From IMG/VR virus record IMGVR_UViG_3300032241_002541, positions 1-22,297 of that record: a DNA stretch of 22,297 nucleotides. One strand, given 5' to 3'. Position numbers and translations under genes: made by a program. The DNA is from a virus. Each line of letters begins with the position of its first letter. The first letter of the stretch is position 1. The notes under the pieces are model-generated. The model did not search any database. It worked only from the letters and a program-made list of their open reading frames with translations, and was not told where the DNA came from. Shown in pieces: positions 4,113 through 14,390 of this stretch.

Positions 4113-4550
4113 ATGGCTGAAAATTTAAAAGGCTCTAAGACTGCCGAATGTCTTAAAGAAGCGTTTGCAGGTGAATCAATGGCTAATCGCCGTTATTTGT
4201 ACTTTGCAAATCGTTGTGATGTAATGGGTGACAATGATACAGCGGCTTTGTTCCGTTCTACTGCTGAAGGTGAAACGGGTCATGCTCATGGTCATATGGA
4301 GTTTTTAATTGAAGGTGGTGCTGGTGAACCCGGTACTAATATGCCAGCAAGTACAGTTACTGAAATGTTGGAAGCTGCCATCAGCGGTGAAACACATGAG
4401 TATACTGATATGTACCCTGGTATGGCAAAGACTGCTCGTGATGAAGGTTTTGATGAAGTTGCTGATTGGTTTGAGACTTTGGCTAAAGCTGAACGCTCTC
4501 ATGCTGGTCGTTATACAAAACAATTAGCGGCAGTTCAAGCCGATTCATAA
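4113..4550 (+). CDS. Rubrerythrin (ferritin-like di-iron domain only)
   Basis: A 145-residue rubrerythrin, a di-iron enzyme that reduces hydrogen peroxide or handles iron and oxygen stress. All expected ligands are visible: Glu21, Glu54-x-x-His57, Glu93, Glu96 and Glu127-x-x-His130. Their spacing closely follows Desulfovibrio rubrerythrin (Glu20, Glu53, His56, Glu94, Glu97, Glu127, His131). The usual C-terminal rubredoxin domain is missing: there is no CxxC pair, and the protein ends soon after the four-helix bundle. Electrons would have to come from a host donor, as proposed for single-domain relatives. The gene follows gp32 by 10 bases with a poor ribosome binding site and ends at a strong terminator. 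Its composition looks more G+C-rich than its neighbours by eye, hinting at acquisition from a bacterium. The family is certain; a role in protecting infected cells is inferred. Confidence 0.93.
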
Positions 4551-4617: not shown

Positions 4618-6615
4618 TTAAACAACTCTAGTATTATACAAAGTCACTCGTTCATATGTTGGGTCCTTATTTCTTATATTGCCCATAGGTAATTTAGAAG
4701 TATCTTCAGGATCTGCATATGATAATCCTTTTCTTCCTTGGCCGGCGACTGAAGTGTTGTTTACAACAGATGTTTTATTCTTAGGTATAGCATTATCTAA
4801 TTTCATAGATTGATTCATTTGAGTAGAAGCATTTAATTTTTGGCCAGCATTAGGTGTCGGTGTTGGTACAACACTTGTTGGTGATGACATACTACTAGGC
4901 GCACTACCAGGTGTGCTTGCTGGTGTACTTCCGCCACCAGATTGTGATGGTACTGTTGTTGCAGTTGGCATTGCAGGTGCCGTTGCGGCCGCTGGCGTAG
5001 TTTTAGTTTCTTCCTTTTTCAAACCATCTGCGGCACCTTGTGGGTCTGCTGGAGGATCGGCATCTTTACCGCTAGCGAAATAATCAAACATTTTCTCTGC
5101 GGCATACTTACCAAGTTTTTCACCACCAAAGAAACCTGCTGCGCCTCCTAGAATTCCTCCAACAAGCGTGCCTGCTCCTGGGACAACAGAACCTATTGAG
5201 CCACCAAGTAATCCACCAACTTCTGCACCGCCTAAGCCACCTAAACCGCCACCTACAGCACCAATAATTTCTTTTCTAAGTTCTTGATCGGATATTTCTC
5301 CCGCTTCATTCTTATCAATAGCAGTTTTAACATCATAAATTAAAGCTGCACCAGCGGCAATTAAGGATAAACCTGGTATTTTTTCCAAGAATTTAAGAAC
5401 GCCTTTGGCAGATTCTAAAAATTTAGATACTTTAGTTGCAGATTTTGCTGCGCCTTCTACTAAACCTTCTGCGGAACCAATAGCTGTTTTTGCACCACCT
5501 TTAAGTGCATTTAGACCTTTGCTTGCCAATTTTTTTAATGCGCCAACACCAAACATTCCGCCAAGTGTATCTAATACCGTATCAATTATACCTCCACCAC
5601 CTGGTTCTGATTTTGCAGTACTTCCTATAGGCGCACCTGTTAATTTAGCCAATGCTGCCAAAAGTTCTTTGTGTCTTTTTTCTTTTAAATCATATTCTTC
5701 TTGTTTCTTATCATTCTCCAACTCTCTTTGTTTGATATCATCTTCACGGTTTTTTTGCATGAACGCATAGATATCACCAAGAATTGCTGTAGAATTTCCG
5801 CCTAATTCTACACCGCCTTTACTAATTTTTGTTGCTGTGTTAGTTTTTTCATCACCAATTTGAGAAGCTCTAGAACTTTTTCTTCTATATCTTGAACTAA
5901 AATATTCTAATTCACTTTGGTCTCTACCGAGAATTTTACCAAAGATGGCAGATGCACCACGACCACCAACACTTTTGGCTATGTTTAATGGATCAAATTT
6001 CTTTTTGATATCAGTAAATGTTGCCTGAGTTTTTGTTCCTATAGCACCTTTAATAGAATCTTTAATACTTTTGCCTTGAATAATATTTTCGGCAATTAAA
6101 TCACCAACAGAATATCTTCTTATCTTGTCAGCAAATTTATATTCTTTTACTTTTTTATTATCACTACTAGGTTCTTCTTCCTCTTTTTTTACTTTTTTAT
6201 TATCACTACTAGGTTCTTCTTCCTCTTTTTTTACTTTTTTATTATCACTACTAGGTTCTTTTTTATCTACTTCTTCAACTTTTGTGGCAGTAGGTTTGGA
6301 TTCGTTTTTTATATCTTGTTGCTCAAGGTCTTTTAATTCTTCTTTGACTTCATTTAAATCTTTTTCTAATTTTTTAATTATTTTACTTAAAGATTCATCT
6401 TTTTCATTAGGCATCTCCAGTTTAACCATTTCTGGAATTGGAACATCTCCTTTTATTACTTGTTCAGCTGGTAATGCTTCTACGGCTTTTTTTATATTAT
6501 CATAAACTTTTTTCTCCGCAGCAGTATAACCCATCAAATTCTGTTCAACAGATTGAATTTGTGCTTCTTTTAACTTATCAATTGTTTTTCTAAAGTCTTT
6601 TGATTTTTTAGCCAT
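4618..6615 (-). CDS. Tape-measure/baseplate-hub-like protein (position of T4 gp29)
   Basis: A 665-residue virion protein, probably inside the tail tube or hub. Layout: a charged helical N-terminus with a likely coiled coil (residues 70-105); a linker with three copies of a 14-residue PSSDNKKVKKEEEE unit (about 120-157); and a block ILGDIYAFMQKNREDD...KRHKELLAAL (278-322) shared with the lysozyme protein before it. Next come an amphipathic alanine/glycine region with a hydrophobic segment (LSLIAAGAALIYDV) and a long glycine-zipper stretch (451-500). The tail is Pro/Ser/Thr-rich with a VVNNTSV motif, also shared with that protein. Glycine-zipper hydrophobic segments are common in tape measures and membrane-penetrating hub proteins. 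Its place after gp26 fits T4 gp29, but I see no clear sequence match to gp29. The start overlaps the previous stop by 8 bases. Confidence 0.6.
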   Translation of the reverse strand: MAKKSKDFRKTIDKLKEAQIQSVEQNLMGYTAAEKKVYDNIKKAVEALPAEQVIKGDVPIPEMVKLEMPNEKDESLSKIIKKLEKDLNEVKEELKDLEQQDIKNESKPTATKVEEVDKKEPSSDNKKVKKEEEEPSSDNKKVKKEEEEPSSDNKKVKEYKFADKIRRYSVGDLIAENIIQGKSIKDSIKGAIGTKTQATFTDIKKKFDPLNIAKSVGGRGASAIFGKILGRDQSELEYFSSRYRRKSSRASQIGDEKTNTATKISKGGVELGGNSTAILGDIYAFMQKNREDDIKQRELENDKKQEEYDLKEKRHKELLAALAKLTGAPIGSTAKSEPGGGGIIDTVLDTLGGMFGVGALKKLASKGLNALKGGAKTAIGSAEGLVEGAAKSATKVSKFLESAKGVLKFLEKIPGLSLIAAGAALIYDVKTAIDKNEAGEISDQELRKEIIGAVGGGLGGLGGAEVGGLLGGSIGSVVPGAGTLVGGILGGAAGFFGGEKLGKYAAEKMFDYFASGKDADPPADPQGAADGLKKEETKTTPAAATAPAMPTATTVPSQSGGGSTPASTPGSAPSSMSSPTSVVPTPTPNAGQKLNASTQMNQSMKLDNAIPKNKTSVVNNTSVAGQGRKGLSYADPEDTSKLPMGNIRNKDPTYERVTLYNTRVV
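6149..6260 (-). repeat. 42-base tandem repeat inside the tape-measure-like gene
   Basis: Copies begin at 6149, 6191 and 6233 on the plus strand, exactly 42 bases apart; the third is incomplete. They encode the PSSDNKKVKKEEEE linker units. The near-identity of the DNA suggests recent expansion by slippage or unequal recombination, and copy number probably varies between relatives. Confidence 0.85.
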
Positions 6616-8092
6616 TTATTATTCTTTTTTGGTGTAATGGACTGTCATCATCTGTAATCATAAGAGCACTCGCCTGTTTGTTTTGAGGAGGAGGTGCAAT
6701 AGTGGTATTATTTACAAGCGTTGTTGAAGATTGGTTTGCTGCCATCTCATCTTTTAAACTTTTATTTGTAGCAGAAGCAGGTGCAACAGCAGATGAAGCG
6801 GGAGTTGAAGGAGCAGGACTTGCTTTATTTTGAGGCATAGGTGCAGCAGAAGCAACTTGAGTTGGTTTTGATAATTGGTCCGCTTTATTTTCCTTTGCTG
6901 GTGTTGCAGATGCGGTCTTAGTATCATCTTTACCAGCTGGTACTGCTGTATCAGTATTTGAACCTGCACCAGCACGTATCATGGCAACAATCTCAGGTGC
7001 TCTTTTGCCAACTTGAGTGTACCATTTACTTGTTTCTAAATTCTTTGCTGCGCCTTCAATATCACCAGATTCTAGTGCTTTGGTGAAACTTGGCCATTTC
7101 TTATACCAAGCAGGTCCCATATTGAATGTCAGGTCAATCAAGGCCGCTTTACCTTTGTCATTTAAGTTATTGTAACCGGGAATCTTTTCAGCTGCCTTCA
7201 TGTGATGATTATAATCTTGTGAGAATAAATCATCAACTTCTTTATCAGATAATTGTCTGTTCCATTCCGGTGGTAAAGATTTGCCATCACCAATCAAGTG
7301 ACCAACACCAACAGTCCAAAGACCCAATGAGTCCTTATATGGTGCATTTTTAACACCTTCATGGCGTTTAATCATACTCTTTGACATTTCATAAAGAGTA
7401 CCAGTAGCAACTACTGCGGTTGCACCAATACCTGCTGCCGCTCCAGGTGATATACCGGATGGTGCCGCACTTGGTCTTGCGGCTGCACCTGGTTTCGGAG
7501 CACCAGCACTTGGTCTTGCGGCTGCACCTGGTTTCGGAGCACCAGCACTTGGTCTTGCGGCTGCACCTGGTTTCGGAGCACCAGCACTTGGTCTTGCGGT
7601 TGCACCTGGTTTTGGAGCACCAGCACTTGGTCTCGGCGCAGGAGCTTTTGGCGCAGGTGTTTTAGGTGCCGGAGTTTTTGGCGCAGGGGCTTTAGGTTTT
7701 TCTTCTTTGAGTTTTTCTTCTTTTTTAGGTTTTTTCTTATATGTTAAAGCCTTAATTAATTCACCGTGCCATTCTTCTTCTTGACGATTTTGATCTTTTA
7801 ATTTAGTGACAGCTAATTCTTTTTGAGTATCATAATCTTCACGATCTTCTTTCATCAATTTATAGATGTCGCCAAGAATTTGTTCAGCAGAATTTTTTGT
7901 TTTTTTGTGTGCAACACCAGACATTTCTTTACCCATATTTTTAGATGTGTCTTTCATCTGTGTGGCAGTTTGTTTTGTTTGTTCAGATAGTTCTGGTTTT
8001 TCTTTTTCAGACGATGAAGTACCACCAGTCAGTAGGTTTTTTCCTACCGAGCTCAAAGTATTACCTATTCCTTTTAATGAAGGCAGTTTCAT
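6608..8092 (-). CDS. Tail-associated lysozyme fused to a tape-measure-like scaffold
   Basis: A 494-residue protein. The N-terminal 120 residues contain the block ILGDIYKLMKEDRED...EWHGELIKAL (72-116) shared with the next gene. Then comes a Pro/Ala linker: PAPKT repeats (135-153) and four 13-residue RPSAGAPKPGAxA repeats (about 154-206). A hydrophobic Gly/Ala stretch (about 214-231) follows. The enzymatic domain (about 235-373) is T4-lysozyme (GH24) type, with RHEG (Glu245), KDSLG (Asp254), WTVGVGHLI (Thr260) and the later LTFNMG block. The Glu-Asp-Thr spacing of 9 and 6 equals T4 lysozyme Glu11/Asp20/Thr26. The C-terminal low-complexity tail holds a TLVNNTTI motif. Inferred role: local peptidoglycan digestion during tail penetration, replacing the lysozyme domain missing from the gp5-like spike here. 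Its start overlaps the stop of the short -1 frame ORF (ATGA). Confidence 0.82.
   Translation of the reverse strand: MKLPSLKGIGNTLSSVGKNLLTGGTSSSEKEKPELSEQTKQTATQMKDTSKNMGKEMSGVAHKKTKNSAEQILGDIYKLMKEDREDYDTQKELAVTKLKDQNRQEEEWHGELIKALTYKKKPKKEEKLKEEKPKAPAPKTPAPKTPAPKAPAPRPSAGAPKPGATARPSAGAPKPGAAARPSAGAPKPGAAARPSAGAPKPGAAARPSAAPSGISPGAAAGIGATAVVATGTLYEMSKSMIKRHEGVKNAPYKDSLGLWTVGVGHLIGDGKSLPPEWNRQLSDKEVDDLFSQDYNHHMKAAEKIPGYNNLNDKGKAALIDLTFNMGPAWYKKWPSFTKALESGDIEGAAKNLETSKWYTQVGKRAPEIVAMIRAGAGSNTDTAVPAGKDDTKTASATPAKENKADQLSKPTQVASAAPMPQNKASPAPSTPASSAVAPASATNKSLKDEMAANQSSTTLVNNTTIAPPPQNKQASALMITDDDSPLHQKRIING
7470..7639 (-). repeat. 39-base tandem repeat in the lysozyme linker
   Basis: Four nearly identical 39-base copies begin at 7470, 7509, 7548 and 7587 on the plus strand, and a partial fifth begins at 7626. 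They stay in frame and encode the proline/alanine-rich hinge before the lysozyme domain. Identity at third codon positions points to recent duplication. Confidence 0.9.
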
Positions 8093-8283
8093 CTATTTAA
8101 TTTTTGTTTTTCTTTAATTTTTTGATTTTCTTCTTCAATATATTGAATCAAAAGATTCACATAAATATCTCTTTCCCAAGGTAACATATTGTCAAGTTCT
8201 GTAAGACTATATTTGTGGTGTTGCATTAATGAAAAATTAGTCTTATAGTAGTTCCTTAGATTATCATGACGAAATGTTAACCG
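8089..8283 (-). CDS. gp26 C-terminal extension read by -1 frameshift (tail-assembly-chaperone-like, often called gp51)
   Basis: This frame encodes 64 residues, RLTFRHDNLRNYYKTNF, then LMQHHKYSLTELDNMLPWER, then DIYVNLLIQYIEEEN and a basic end. The block LPWERDIYVNLL and the HDNL/NYY segment look like genuine conserved protein, not a random frame. It has no usable start. A TGA lies immediately upstream of the slip site, and the first ATG comes at codon 20 with no ribosome binding site, inside the conserved part. The likely product is a gp26 fusion of about 304 residues made by -1 slippage at 8283-8292. Its stop overlaps the lysozyme gene start as ATGA. By analogy with lambda G/GT, the fusion would chaperone the tape-measure-like proteins encoded next. 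T4 gp51 (249 residues) is much longer, so the gp51 name would be positional only. Confidence 0.75.
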   Translation of the reverse strand, partial: RLTFRHDNLRNYYKTNFSLMQHHKYSLTELDNMLPWERDIYVNLLIQYIEEENQKIKEKQKLNR

Positions 8284-9002
8284 AAAAAATTTTCAAGGCC
8301 TTCCACATTGATAGTATGATGAAATTGACATTTTTTACAAGTCATTTCAATTTTTTGTCTCATTTTTGGTAAATTATTAAAAAATTCTTCTATTTTGTTA
8401 AATTGTTCTTGATTCAAATTTTCAATAAATTCTACCATTTCAGATTGTTCAACTTCATTAGCATAGTAATATTGTTCACTATCATAAATGTATTCTACGG
8501 ATTGTGCTATAATATTGAATGTCAGTGTATTAACATCTTCATATTGTAAAGCATTTCTAACAAAAGCAAACTCAGGATATTTTAATTTGATAATAAATTT
8601 ATCATTCAGCTGAATTTGATTAGAAACATTTTCTCCCATTTCAACTTTAATTTTGGTCAAATCAATATTTGTTTCCATAATATTGTTACACATTTTATCT
8701 TCTACCATATTGTTGCAACGATACCTAGCGTCAACAATTTCACCAACTGATTTTGCTCTTAGGTTAATGAAAAAATATTCGGCATCAATAATTGGCAATT
8801 TATCAATATCTGTGTTTTCTGTTAAACAACAATTATTCAGTATATCAGCAACATTTTGCTGAATTACTTCAGTTTCATCTGATTCCATAGCCATCAATAA
8901 ATTTCTTTGTTCTTTGACGGTAAAAGGACGGTATTTTATCCTTTTTTTAGAAAGTGGTAACATCAATTCATATATCGGTGTATCAATTTTCGGCAAAGCC
9001 AT
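8277..9002 (-). CDS. 26: Baseplate hub assembly protein gp26 (T4_baseplate family)
   Basis: A 241-residue homologue of T4 gp26. It opens with the family hallmark MALPKIDTPIYELMLPLSKK followed by IKYRPFTVKEQRNLLMAMES. It also carries VADILNNCC and a central segment ending LKYPEFAFVRNA. Four cysteines, Cys96 and Cys105 (in RCNNMVEDKMC) and Cys222-x-x-Cys225 (in MTCKKCQFHH), could form a zinc site; that is inference. An AAGGAG lies 8-9 bases upstream of the start. T4 gp26 takes part in forming the central baseplate hub, but the position upstream of tape-measure-like genes and the frameshifted extension suggest a tail-assembly-chaperone role like lambda gpG. It is 28 bases downstream of the tail-tube-like gene. 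Confidence 0.87.
   Translation of the reverse strand: MALPKIDTPIYELMLPLSKKRIKYRPFTVKEQRNLLMAMESDETEVIQQNVADILNNCCLTENTDIDKLPIIDAEYFFINLRAKSVGEIVDARYRCNNMVEDKMCNNIMETNIDLTKIKVEMGENVSNQIQLNDKFIIKLKYPEFAFVRNALQYEDVNTLTFNIIAQSVEYIYDSEQYYYANEVEQSEMVEFIENLNQEQFNKIEEFFNNLPKMRQKIEMTCKKCQFHHTINVEGLENFFG
8283..8292 (-). other. Candidate programmed -1 frameshift site
   Basis: On the minus strand the gp26 frame reads GAA AAT TTT TTC GGT TAA. It contains two overlapping slippery heptamers of the X XXY YYZ type: A AAT TTT (complement 8286-8292) and T TTT TTC (complement 8283-8289). A -1 slip at either gives the same product and continues into the 64-codon frame. The gp26 stop follows two codons after the first site. 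I did not identify a clear stimulatory pseudoknot. Confidence 0.7.
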
Positions 9003-9029: not shown

Positions 9030-9596
9030 TTAAGACCAATCAGCAGTAGGTCCAGGATCAAAACTATCACTATCATTTGATGCTGGTGGCGAACTAGGTG
9101 ATTGTGTATTATTGATCCAAAATGTATAAGCAAAAGTTACATTTATTTTGTGTTTTGAATCAACATTAGCCCAATCCAAATCCATTTGATTTATATTGAT
9201 AGGATAAGCATCAGCCAACGTAACCGAATAACTCAATTCATTTATAACATTATACTGATTAATCGTTATATCTTGTACATAATCACTTTTGTAGGCTATG
9301 TCAAAACTACTAGTCGGATTAATTTTTTCCATCCAAGCATCAAAAAATAACTTTTCTGTCATTGCATCATCAACCAAAAATGTCATATCAATATCATTAA
9401 AAGTTATATGGTTTGGAAATTTTTCATACGGTCCATAAGTTTTTTGTTCAATAGTCTCCAAATGTTTGCCTGGAAGTTGAGAAATTTCACACCTATATCT
9501 AAGTGTTGGACTGCTAGGAATGAAAACATCAAACTTATCAGGTCTAGCTACATCAGCCTTAAAACTATGTAAAAATTCTGAAATTGTGCCTGCCAT
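9030..9596 (-). CDS. Tail-tube-fold protein (gp19/gp54-like)
   Basis: A 188-residue protein of the T4-type tail-tube family. The pattern runs ARPDKFDVFIP, RYRCEISQLPGKHLETIEQKTYGPYEKFP, DIDMTFLVDDAMTEKLFFDAWMEKI, DIAYKSDYVQDITINQYN, VTLADAYPININQMDLDW, then KINVTFAYTFW. This is the usual order in gp19 tubes and in the baseplate tube-initiator gp54. The last 25 residues are a Ser/Pro/Asp-rich tail. Because it lies among baseplate hub genes, not beside the sheath gene, I favour a baseplate tube-initiator or hub-proximal tube ring over the main tube subunit. The main tube gene is not in this window. It starts directly at the stop of the previous gene, with AAGGA as ribosome binding site. Confidence 0.75.
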   Translation of the reverse strand: MAGTISEFLHSFKADVARPDKFDVFIPSSPTLRYRCEISQLPGKHLETIEQKTYGPYEKFPNHITFNDIDMTFLVDDAMTEKLFFDAWMEKINPTSSFDIAYKSDYVQDITINQYNVINELSYSVTLADAYPININQMDLDWANVDSKHKINVTFAYTFWINNTQSPSSPPASNDSDSFDPGPTADWS

Positions 9597-12177: not shown

Positions 12178-13494
12178 ATGGCAAAATTACCTTTAACGCT
12201 GTCAATACAAGAGTTGACTTTGACCGGATCAACAGGAGATTTAAATTTAAAAGAACAAATGATACAATTTGTTTATTATGAAGATTTATTTGCTTTTTGT
12301 TTTTCCGGAGTGTTAACAGTTACCGATTCAGCAGGCAATATTGAAAATTTACAATTAACTGGTAACGATTCTTTAAAAATTGTTTTAGGTCAATCTGCAG
12401 ATGATCCAAATAAAACAACAGAAATTTTTAGAGTTTATAAGATAACAAAAAGAAAACCATCAGGAAACTTAAACTCTGAAACTTATGATTTATGTTTGTG
12501 TTCTGAAGATTTGATGATTTCCGAACAAATAAAAGTCAGTAAATCTTATCCTGGAATGAAAATATCTGATATAATTACTGATATTTTACAAAATCAACTT
12601 GGTGTTAGTAAACCCGTTACAGCAGAAGCAACAACTGGAATATATGATTTTATTGTTCCTACGTTTAAGCCTTTTGAAGCAATTAGTTGGTTATCAACTT
12701 ATGCCAGATCAGCAAAGTATTCGGGTTCAGACATGATACTGTTTGAAACAAAAGAAGGATATTTTTATAGATCATTACAATCAATATATTCGGATGAAGT
12801 ATATAATATTTACAAATACGATACAAAAAATTTACCTGATAGTAAAGAAACTTTTTCTGAAAAAGAGTTGTCAATACAAAGATACGAAATATTTAAAAAT
12901 TATGATATGTTAAATGAAGAAAATTCTGGCACATTTGCAAATAGATTAATTTCAATTGATCCTTTAATTAGGTCGTTTTATGTGACTGATTTTGATTATA
13001 AAAAATATTCAGGAGTTATGTTAAATGGCAATCCTCCTACAAATTTTTATGTGAATAGGCAAGGTAATGCTATAAACACCACGTATGAAGGTGTTTTAAA
13101 AATGGCAACAACAAATAAAAATGAAAAAAAATCTAGTTACATTACAACAAAACAAGACCGAGTCGGTTCTGTCGCACAAGATATTTTTATTGAAACATAT
13201 GTACCACTTAGAACAGCTCAAATATCATTATCAAACTATTCTAAAATGAAAATAGAGGTACCTGGTGATACAGAATTAACAGTTGGTAAAGTTATACAAG
13301 TTAAAATAAATTCAATTAATCAAACAGGTGATACTGGAGGTAATAATAGAGACATAGATAAGTATTATTCTGGTGTATACTTAGTAACAGCACTTCAACA
13401 CGTTTTTAGAACAAACCAATTTGTAACTTTACTAGAAATAGCTAGAGATAGTTCAATGACTGGTTACGATGCACCTCCTAAGGCAATAAAATAA
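12178..13494 (+). CDS. 27: Baseplate central hub protein, gp27-like
   Basis: A 438-residue protein taken as the gp27-type hub trimer that holds the central spike. Features: an N-terminal beta domain (LTLSIQELTLTGSTGDLNLK, then a YYEDLFAFCFSGVLTVTD strand pair); a second barrel with EIFRVYKITKRKP; a helical segment (SYPGMKISDIITDILQNQLG); and FIVPTFKPFEAISWLSTYAR, a motif common to gp27 and VgrG-type hubs. A C-terminal barrel (ELTVGKVIQVKI ... YYSGVYLVTALQHVF) completes it. T4 gp27 has 391 residues. The assignment rests on these hub features and on direct coupling to the gp5-like gene (stop and start overlap in TAATG). Sequence similarity to T4 gp27 itself looks weak by eye. Confidence 0.78.
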   Translation: MAKLPLTLSIQELTLTGSTGDLNLKEQMIQFVYYEDLFAFCFSGVLTVTDSAGNIENLQLTGNDSLKIVLGQSADDPNKTTEIFRVYKITKRKPSGNLNSETYDLCLCSEDLMISEQIKVSKSYPGMKISDIITDILQNQLGVSKPVTAEATTGIYDFIVPTFKPFEAISWLSTYARSAKYSGSDMILFETKEGYFYRSLQSIYSDEVYNIYKYDTKNLPDSKETFSEKELSIQRYEIFKNYDMLNEENSGTFANRLISIDPLIRSFYVTDFDYKKYSGVMLNGNPPTNFYVNRQGNAINTTYEGVLKMATTNKNEKKSSYITTKQDRVGSVAQDIFIETYVPLRTAQISLSNYSKMKIEVPGDTELTVGKVIQVKINSINQTGDTGGNNRDIDKYYSGVYLVTALQHVFRTNQFVTLLEIARDSSMTGYDAPPKAIK

Positions 13495-14390
13495 TGAATA
13501 ATTATATTGGAAAAGACGGTTTCAATTGGTGGTTAGGTGTCATTGAGGCAGTAGATGATCCTTTAAGTTTAGGCAGATGCCGAGTTAGAATATTTGGATG
13601 GCACACATCTAATAAAAAATTAATACCAACAGAAAATTTACCGTGGGCTTTACCTATAAATTCTCCAAATTCTTCTATGACTGCAGCTGCACCCGTCATT
13701 GGAGATTATGCTTTTGGTTTCTTTTCTGATGGAATATCTGGTCAAGCACCTTTTTTGATTGGTATATTTCCAGGTATTCCTCAAAATGGTAAAAATGATT
13801 CTCTCGGTTTTTCTGAAGGTGACCATTATCCAGTCGGAGAACCAACAACAAGTCGTTTATACCGAAATGATGAATTTTTTAACAAAACTTGTGTGTATTA
13901 TAATGACAATAATTTAGACACGGGAGTGCCAACAGCAGACGGTAGTTCTTGGAGTGAACCAAAATCTGGATACGCTACAACGCCTGCTAGCAACAGGGTT
14001 ATTGAGACCAAATCAGGACACGTATTTGAGATGGACGATACTCCTGGCGCTGAAAGGATACACCTAAACCACAAGGCCAACACATTCTTTCAGATAGACG
14101 CTTCAGGCAACATGGTTACCAAAGTTTCTGGTAAAAATTATGAAGTTTACCTATCGGATAACAATATTCATGTAAAAGGTGTATGTAATATAACTGTGGA
14201 TGGTAATGCCAACATATATGTTAAAGGTAATGTGACGGAAAAAGTGGATGGTAATATAGAAAGAACAGTTGGAGGTAATGTGACCGAAACAATTGGTGGT
14301 AATTATCAAGCACAAGTAAGCGGAACATATCAGGTAACATCAGGTGGAAATATGACATTGATAGCACCAAAAATTGATTTAAATCCATGA
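13494..14390 (+). CDS. 5: Central spike protein gp5-like, without a lysozyme domain
   Basis: A 298-residue gp5-type spike. Residues 10-95 form the N-terminal OB fold: FNWWLGVIEAVDDPLSLGRC, RVRIFGWHT, IPTENLPWALPI, DYAFGFFSDG, then FLIGIFPGI. Residues 169-190 (IETKSGHVFEMDDTPGAERI) match the segment before the needle in T4 gp5. Residues 225-290 are a triple-stranded beta-helix with valine/glycine octads (VDGNANIYVKGN, VDGNIERTVGGN). T4 gp5 has 575 residues and carries a lysozyme domain between OB fold and needle. Here a short linker of about 75 residues takes its place, with no RxEG or TxGxGH motif. The PAAR protein two genes on would cap the needle. The stop overlaps the next start in ATGA. 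Confidence 0.9.
   Translation: MNNYIGKDGFNWWLGVIEAVDDPLSLGRCRVRIFGWHTSNKKLIPTENLPWALPINSPNSSMTAAAPVIGDYAFGFFSDGISGQAPFLIGIFPGIPQNGKNDSLGFSEGDHYPVGEPTTSRLYRNDEFFNKTCVYYNDNNLDTGVPTADGSSWSEPKSGYATTPASNRVIETKSGHVFEMDDTPGAERIHLNHKANTFFQIDASGNMVTKVSGKNYEVYLSDNNIHVKGVCNITVDGNANIYVKGNVTEKVDGNIERTVGGNVTETIGGNYQAQVSGTYQVTSGGNMTLIAPKIDLNP

Follow-up and report, generated by a model that had tools for sequence, protein, structure and literature searches.

Does the short open frame that follows the gp26-like gene of this phage encode a protein of its own, gp51, or is it the C-terminal part of a longer form of gp26 that is made by programmed -1 frameshifting, as in the gpG/gpGT tail chaperones of phage λ? 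The DNA analyzed here (the window) is a stretch of 22,297 nucleotides, positions 1 to 22,297 of IMG/VR virus record IMGVR_UViG_3300032241_002541, and an earlier note made from its sequence had proposed the second answer. The genes around the locus are the following:

10651-10214, minus strand: head closure
10205-9597, minus strand: DNA end protector
9030..9596, minus strand: tail tube protein, directly upstream of gp26 (phrog_45, 1.6e-33)
8277..9002, minus strand: gp26-like gene of 241 aa, putative short chaperone form (TAC-N; PF12322, phrog_150, AF2 pLDDT 88)
6608..8092, minus strand: 494-aa protein with a phage lysozyme domain (PF00959, 2.4e-16), the next gene after the extension
4618..6615, minus strand: 665-aa tape-measure-like or tail-lysin-like protein (weak matches to phrog_1047, 1.5e-10, and to phrog_23574, tail length tape measure, 1.5e-6)

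The window gp26 matches PF12322 across residues 9-240 (5.3e-57, 193.5 bits; curated cut-off 24.5) and phrog_150, a baseplate hub family, at 3.3e-61. Its 3′ end on the minus strand reads GAA AAT TTT TTC GGT TAA and contains two overlapping heptamers, both of which begin at codon position 3, the correct X XXY YYZ phase for tandem -1 slippage. The elements of the putative frameshift site are:

8286..8292, minus strand: A AAT TTT, the first slippery heptamer, in phase and found in only part of the relatives
8283..8289, minus strand: T TTT TTC, the second slippery heptamer, also in phase; this one is conserved (TTTTTT(C/T) in 42/42 divergent representatives)
8277..8279, minus strand: zero-frame gp26 stop codon TAA, 3 nt past the heptamer
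8089..8283, minus strand: -1 frame extension (putative TAC-C, gp51-like), 64 codons and a TGA, with phrog_634 and phrog_150 matches

The -1 frame is shut by a TGA directly before KFF and after the slip stays open for 64 residues, from CGG at 8283 to 8092; its own TGA at 8091-8089 overlaps the ATG of the next gene at 8092 (ATGA). The earlier note had described the two in-phase heptamers, the preceding TGA, the 64 open codons and the ATGA overlap, and all were verified on the window coordinates. A slip on either heptamer would give the identical product, ...ENFF-RLTFRHDNL..., and the predicted fused gp26-51 protein is about 304 aa long. For the -1 frame there is a match to phrog_634, the family of the baseplate hub assembly catalyst gp51 (4.8e-30, profile positions 56-118 of 121), and a second match to the far C-terminus of phrog_150, the gp26 profile (positions 232-276), a first sign that the gp26 family itself includes fused members.

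Among all the ORFs of the window, a heptamer in the last codons combined with a long -1 extension was found in no other except that at 13494-14390 (TTTAAAT, 72 codons), and this candidate was rejected as a second frameshift because its -1 frame is just the neighboring ORF, which starts at 14387. The product of 13494-14390 is a gp5-like spike protein with OB and C-terminal repeat domains and no others; the lysozyme domain is in the 8092-6608 protein.

In tblastn searches, gp26 was matched in 1016 phage records and the extension in 548. The extension matches listed begin at residues 1-7, nearly all of them at residue 1, and overlap the gp26 end; among these listed matches the starts precede any usable start in the window. 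From two scans of IMG/VR came 160 loci, and named phages were added to these. An in-phase TTTTTTC or TTTTTTT lies 2-4 codons ahead of the gp26 stop in 158/158 loci with a complete extension, a set that was chosen for a heptamer and a complete extension and from which no gp26 of these groups was omitted for heptamer absence, since the unselected list holds contig-end-cut loci (heptamer present), T4-type genes, and one Ackermannviridae phage. The 158 loci were clustered into 42 divergent representatives; within the bodies of their gp26 genes, in-phase XXXYYYZ occurs at a background of 0.0079 per codon and TTTTTTN at 0.0016 per codon, and by this sequence measure the terminal heptamer exceeds chance. 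The codon ahead of the T6 is AGT, AAT, GAT, GGT, or GCT, so that its third base is T in 42/42, where a T-ending codon followed by TTT would be expected in about 48% from the amino acids and pooled codon usage (the sequences are related, and this comparison is thus not a formal p-value).

The 158-locus set includes S-RSM4, P-SSM2, Melnitz-2, Vibrio D491s, phiM19, and a Desulfovibrio phage, and the canonical heptamer is also kept in Vibrio KVP40, Synechococcus MC09, Mendera, and Pseudoalteromonas XG4 (T TTT TTA). The heptamer and the open -1 frame are both kept by the relatives tested in the freshwater, marine-cyanophage, Sinorhizobium, giant-Vibrio (KVP40-type), and Menderavirus groups, the one exception being the record of Stenotrophomonas phage IME-SM1 (L181). 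The latter has T5 at the slip site, as opposed to T6 in its sister phage Mendera (L193), and because of this its annotated gp26 runs into an aberrant C-terminus; the T5 is likely a homopolymer sequencing error.

Seven loci from Ackermannviridae and probably related phages (L004, L182, L184, L185, L186, L187, and L192) have a homologous -1 extension at the gp26 end and no canonical heptamer; NTT TTY is present instead (ATTTTC, GTTTTC, CTTTTT, or GTTTTT). An ATG overlaps the gp26 stop in four of these seven. It is absent there in 2050H1, KFM-TASP06, and Sajous1, which suggests a single-tRNA Phe slip in these three.

Phage T4 offers a natural comparison. Its gp26 (208 aa) and gp51 (249 aa) are encoded on opposite strands, both match PF12322, and gp51 covers phrog_150 positions 13-280 plus phrog_634. 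Judged by their sequences, T4 gp26 and gp51 are paralogs, with gp51 comprising the gp26 domain and the extension in one frame. When T4-type gp51 proteins, gp26 proteins, and -1 extensions are aligned, the gp26 end and the extension start join at an invariant Phe column (F200), and this seam is the slip-site Phe codon; T4 thus holds as two paralogous genes what the window would make from one. The AF2 model of a T4-type gp51 is well folded (pLDDT 94, compared with 88 for the window gp26 model).

From the sequence signals, their conservation, the selection on the -1 frame ahead of any start (below), and the natural fusion in T4 gp51, the best reading is that this locus very probably encodes a TAC-N/TAC-NC tail assembly chaperone pair through -1 ribosomal frameshifting, much like λ gpG/gpGT. 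On this reading gp26 would serve a T4-like contractile tail as its short assembly chaperone (TAC-N). While holding tRNA-Phe (or the Asn and Phe tRNAs) on T TTT TTC or A AAT TTT, a minority of ribosomes would slip back one base, bypass the TAA, and read 64 more codons to give gp26-51 (TAC-NC). Like λ gpG/gpGT, the short and long forms, present at a set ratio, would then cover the tape-measure protein whose gene follows and recruit tail tube subunits. That slippage is the mechanism at work, its rate, and the role of the pair as chaperones in the window phage are what we infer here. The relatives' heptamer and open -1 frame, together with the T4 fusion, bear out the earlier note's view of gp26 and its extension as a frameshifted T4-like tail chaperone.

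The most durable of the competing explanations accepts the frameshift and assigns the pair to baseplate hub assembly rather than to tape-measure or tail-tube chaperoning. In T4 the classical role of gp26 and gp51 is in hub assembly; both are listed as hub assembly chaperones, with gp51 absent from the virion (PMC3004832). Foldseek finds that the window gp26 resembles many myovirus "baseplate hub" proteins, and neither sequence profiles nor Foldseek with the gp51 model (best E 0.3) gave any PDB match, whether to λ gpG or to another solved tail chaperone; such folds vary widely, and the missing match is therefore weak evidence. Against a hub role, Vladimirov et al. (2022), as represented in the papers that cite it, assign gp26 and gp51 as TACs, and the order tail tube, gp26/51, tape-measure-like gene resembles that of G/GT. 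In this order the upstream tail tube gene is clear, and downstream there are one lysozyme-domain protein and one protein with weak tape-measure matches. The earlier note had the chaperone serving two tape-measure-like proteins; this is supported in part, in that the 665-aa protein has its weak tape-measure matches and is the likely chaperone client, whereas the 494-aa protein proved to be a lysozyme-domain protein. Overall, a hub role in place of chaperoning seems improbable.

It is less probable still that the extension is a separate gene 51, read either from a start codon of its own or through reinitiation past the gp26 stop, with no fusion made. Databases do annotate gp51 as its own gene, and some relatives have an ATG at or just past the gp26 stop, in the form TAATG (KVP40 and some Ackermannviridae), TGATG (Mendera), or TAAGTATG (P-SSM2); in the P-SSM2-type, Vibrio, and some other phages, where this ATG is at the stop or within a few codons past it, reinitiation is possible. 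In the window, however, the first in-frame ATG of the extension is residue 20 (8226-8224), and it has no Shine-Dalgarno (SD) sequence (anti-SD duplex -0.6 kcal/mol), as the earlier note had stated. The start is not conserved among the relatives: the first ATG of the extension shifts among residues 3, 4, 19, 20, and 33 or is absent, Met20 is replaced by I, V, or L in other members, and mean SD strength is -1.9 kcal/mol for extension starts vs. -4.9 kcal/mol for gp26 starts. Codons 4-19, which precede the common Met20, have a mean pN of 0.24, a pS of 0.78 (near saturation), and a pN/pS of 0.31, and stops interrupt them in 0/37 representatives in the -1 frame and in 36/37 in the other two frames. 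Such substitution patterns place the residues before the first common Met under purifying selection, and this selection, the invariant heptamer, and the fused state of T4 gp51 itself all argue against a separate gene. Zero-frame read-through of the gp26 stop codon is ruled out by the stops in 36/37 representatives.

Transcriptional slippage, in which RNA polymerase slips on the T6 to give mRNAs with one base more or less and the same fusion, is the least probable explanation. In its favor are the T6 of the window and the T8 of two loci (L079 and L086). Against it, T6 is short for polymerase slippage, the run in phiM19 and in most of the other phages is only 6-7 T long, and the codon phase NNT TTT TTY is kept with its third-base T throughout the representatives, as tandem tRNA slippage needs.

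For ribosomal frameshifting, the reading favored here, one candidate stimulator lies upstream of the slip site:

8299..8304, minus strand: SD-like GGAAGG, possible stimulator, 9 nt upstream of T TTT TTC

This spacing resembles that of dnaX. Anti-SD pairing upstream of the slip is stronger than in synonymous recodings in 81% of the 42 representatives (mean z -1.5), and such sequence comparisons are suggestive of an upstream SD-like stimulator across the group; the window's own element (-5.5 kcal/mol, z -0.3) is no stronger than synonymous recoding. Downstream, the window's group showed no consensus RNA structure, and the window's 50- and 70-nt structure z-scores are positive. The stop codon 3 nt past the slip may help frameshifting. 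In the P-SSM2 group (L121-L171) there is a conserved hairpin, AGTATG...CATACT, about 5 nt past the heptamer and just after the gp26 stop; it has no compensatory changes and so is inseparable from protein conservation.

The abstract of the Vladimirov et al. paper is said to report that several T4-like groups conserve the frameshift and that genes 26 and 51 are those used by T4. The T4-like TAC genes were identified in that work (Vladimirov, Gautam & Davidson, Virology 2022, 566:9-15, as cited in PMC12846349 and PMC10885494), to which a passage of PMC12846349 also attributes poly-T slip signals in TAC-N genes of T4-like phages, and a passage of PMC10885494 states that, in place of frameshifting, some T4-like phages have one short gene plus a longer, fused one. 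A 2016 review had the G-T frameshift conserved in long-tailed phages "except T4" (PMC5009743), and T4 was long listed as such an exception. The KVP40 annotators had already remarked on the likeness of the short frame to the T4 gp51 C-terminus. The frameshift proposal of the earlier note is thus correct, and already known.

As far as the published accounts cited above describe them, the T4-like gp26/gp51 proteins belong to the same family as those of the window (PF12322, phrog_150, and phrog_634) and likewise come in a short and a long version. T4 and its near relatives encode the long version in a gene of its own, the in-frame gp51, which is divergent to gp26 and has no slip site, whereas the window has one gene and a putative frameshift. 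The λ gpG/gpGT-type chaperones, like the window pair, have a slip site near the 3′ end of the short form followed by a -1 extension. They lie between tail tube and tape-measure genes, but the window's downstream tape-measure matches are weak, and no solved tail chaperone was matched by sequence profile or fold; the λ slip site is G-rich and that of the window poly-T. Genes "26" and "51" of KVP40, P-SSM2, and S-RSM4 have the same arrangement, T TTT TTC, and extension as the window but are annotated as two genes, and close to the gp26 stop of several there is an ATG that is absent in the window.

Both states can be seen here: most T4-like groups have one gene with a slip site, and T4 itself has a duplicated pair. 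If the fusion is made by frameshifting, hundreds of cyanophage and Vibrio phage records probably give "gp51" a wrong start, the real product being a gp26 fusion. Because the general point has been published, what this locus adds is one more well-supported member and comparative detail, with the SD-like stimulator trend and the Ackermannviridae variant as side gains. A broader scenario, tentative and somewhat doubtful, is that an ancestral T4-like frameshift cassette was replaced by lineage-specific ratio devices (duplication and in-frame fusion in T4; in Ackermannviridae, coupling of stop and start or a lone P-site Phe slip on NTT TTY), and that in the window's lineage, where the gp5-like spike is without a lysozyme domain, a lysozyme associated with the tape measure is a further client of the chaperone.

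Two further features of the window were noted. Near-perfect tandem repeats in the lysozyme-domain gene (window 7640-7460, minus strand) encode ARPSAGAPKPGA in translation, and these repeats are a probable flexible linker. A rubrerythrin-like protein is encoded at window 4113-4550 (PF02915, 4.6e-24), beside a single-strand DNA binding protein, and is a possible auxiliary metabolic gene.
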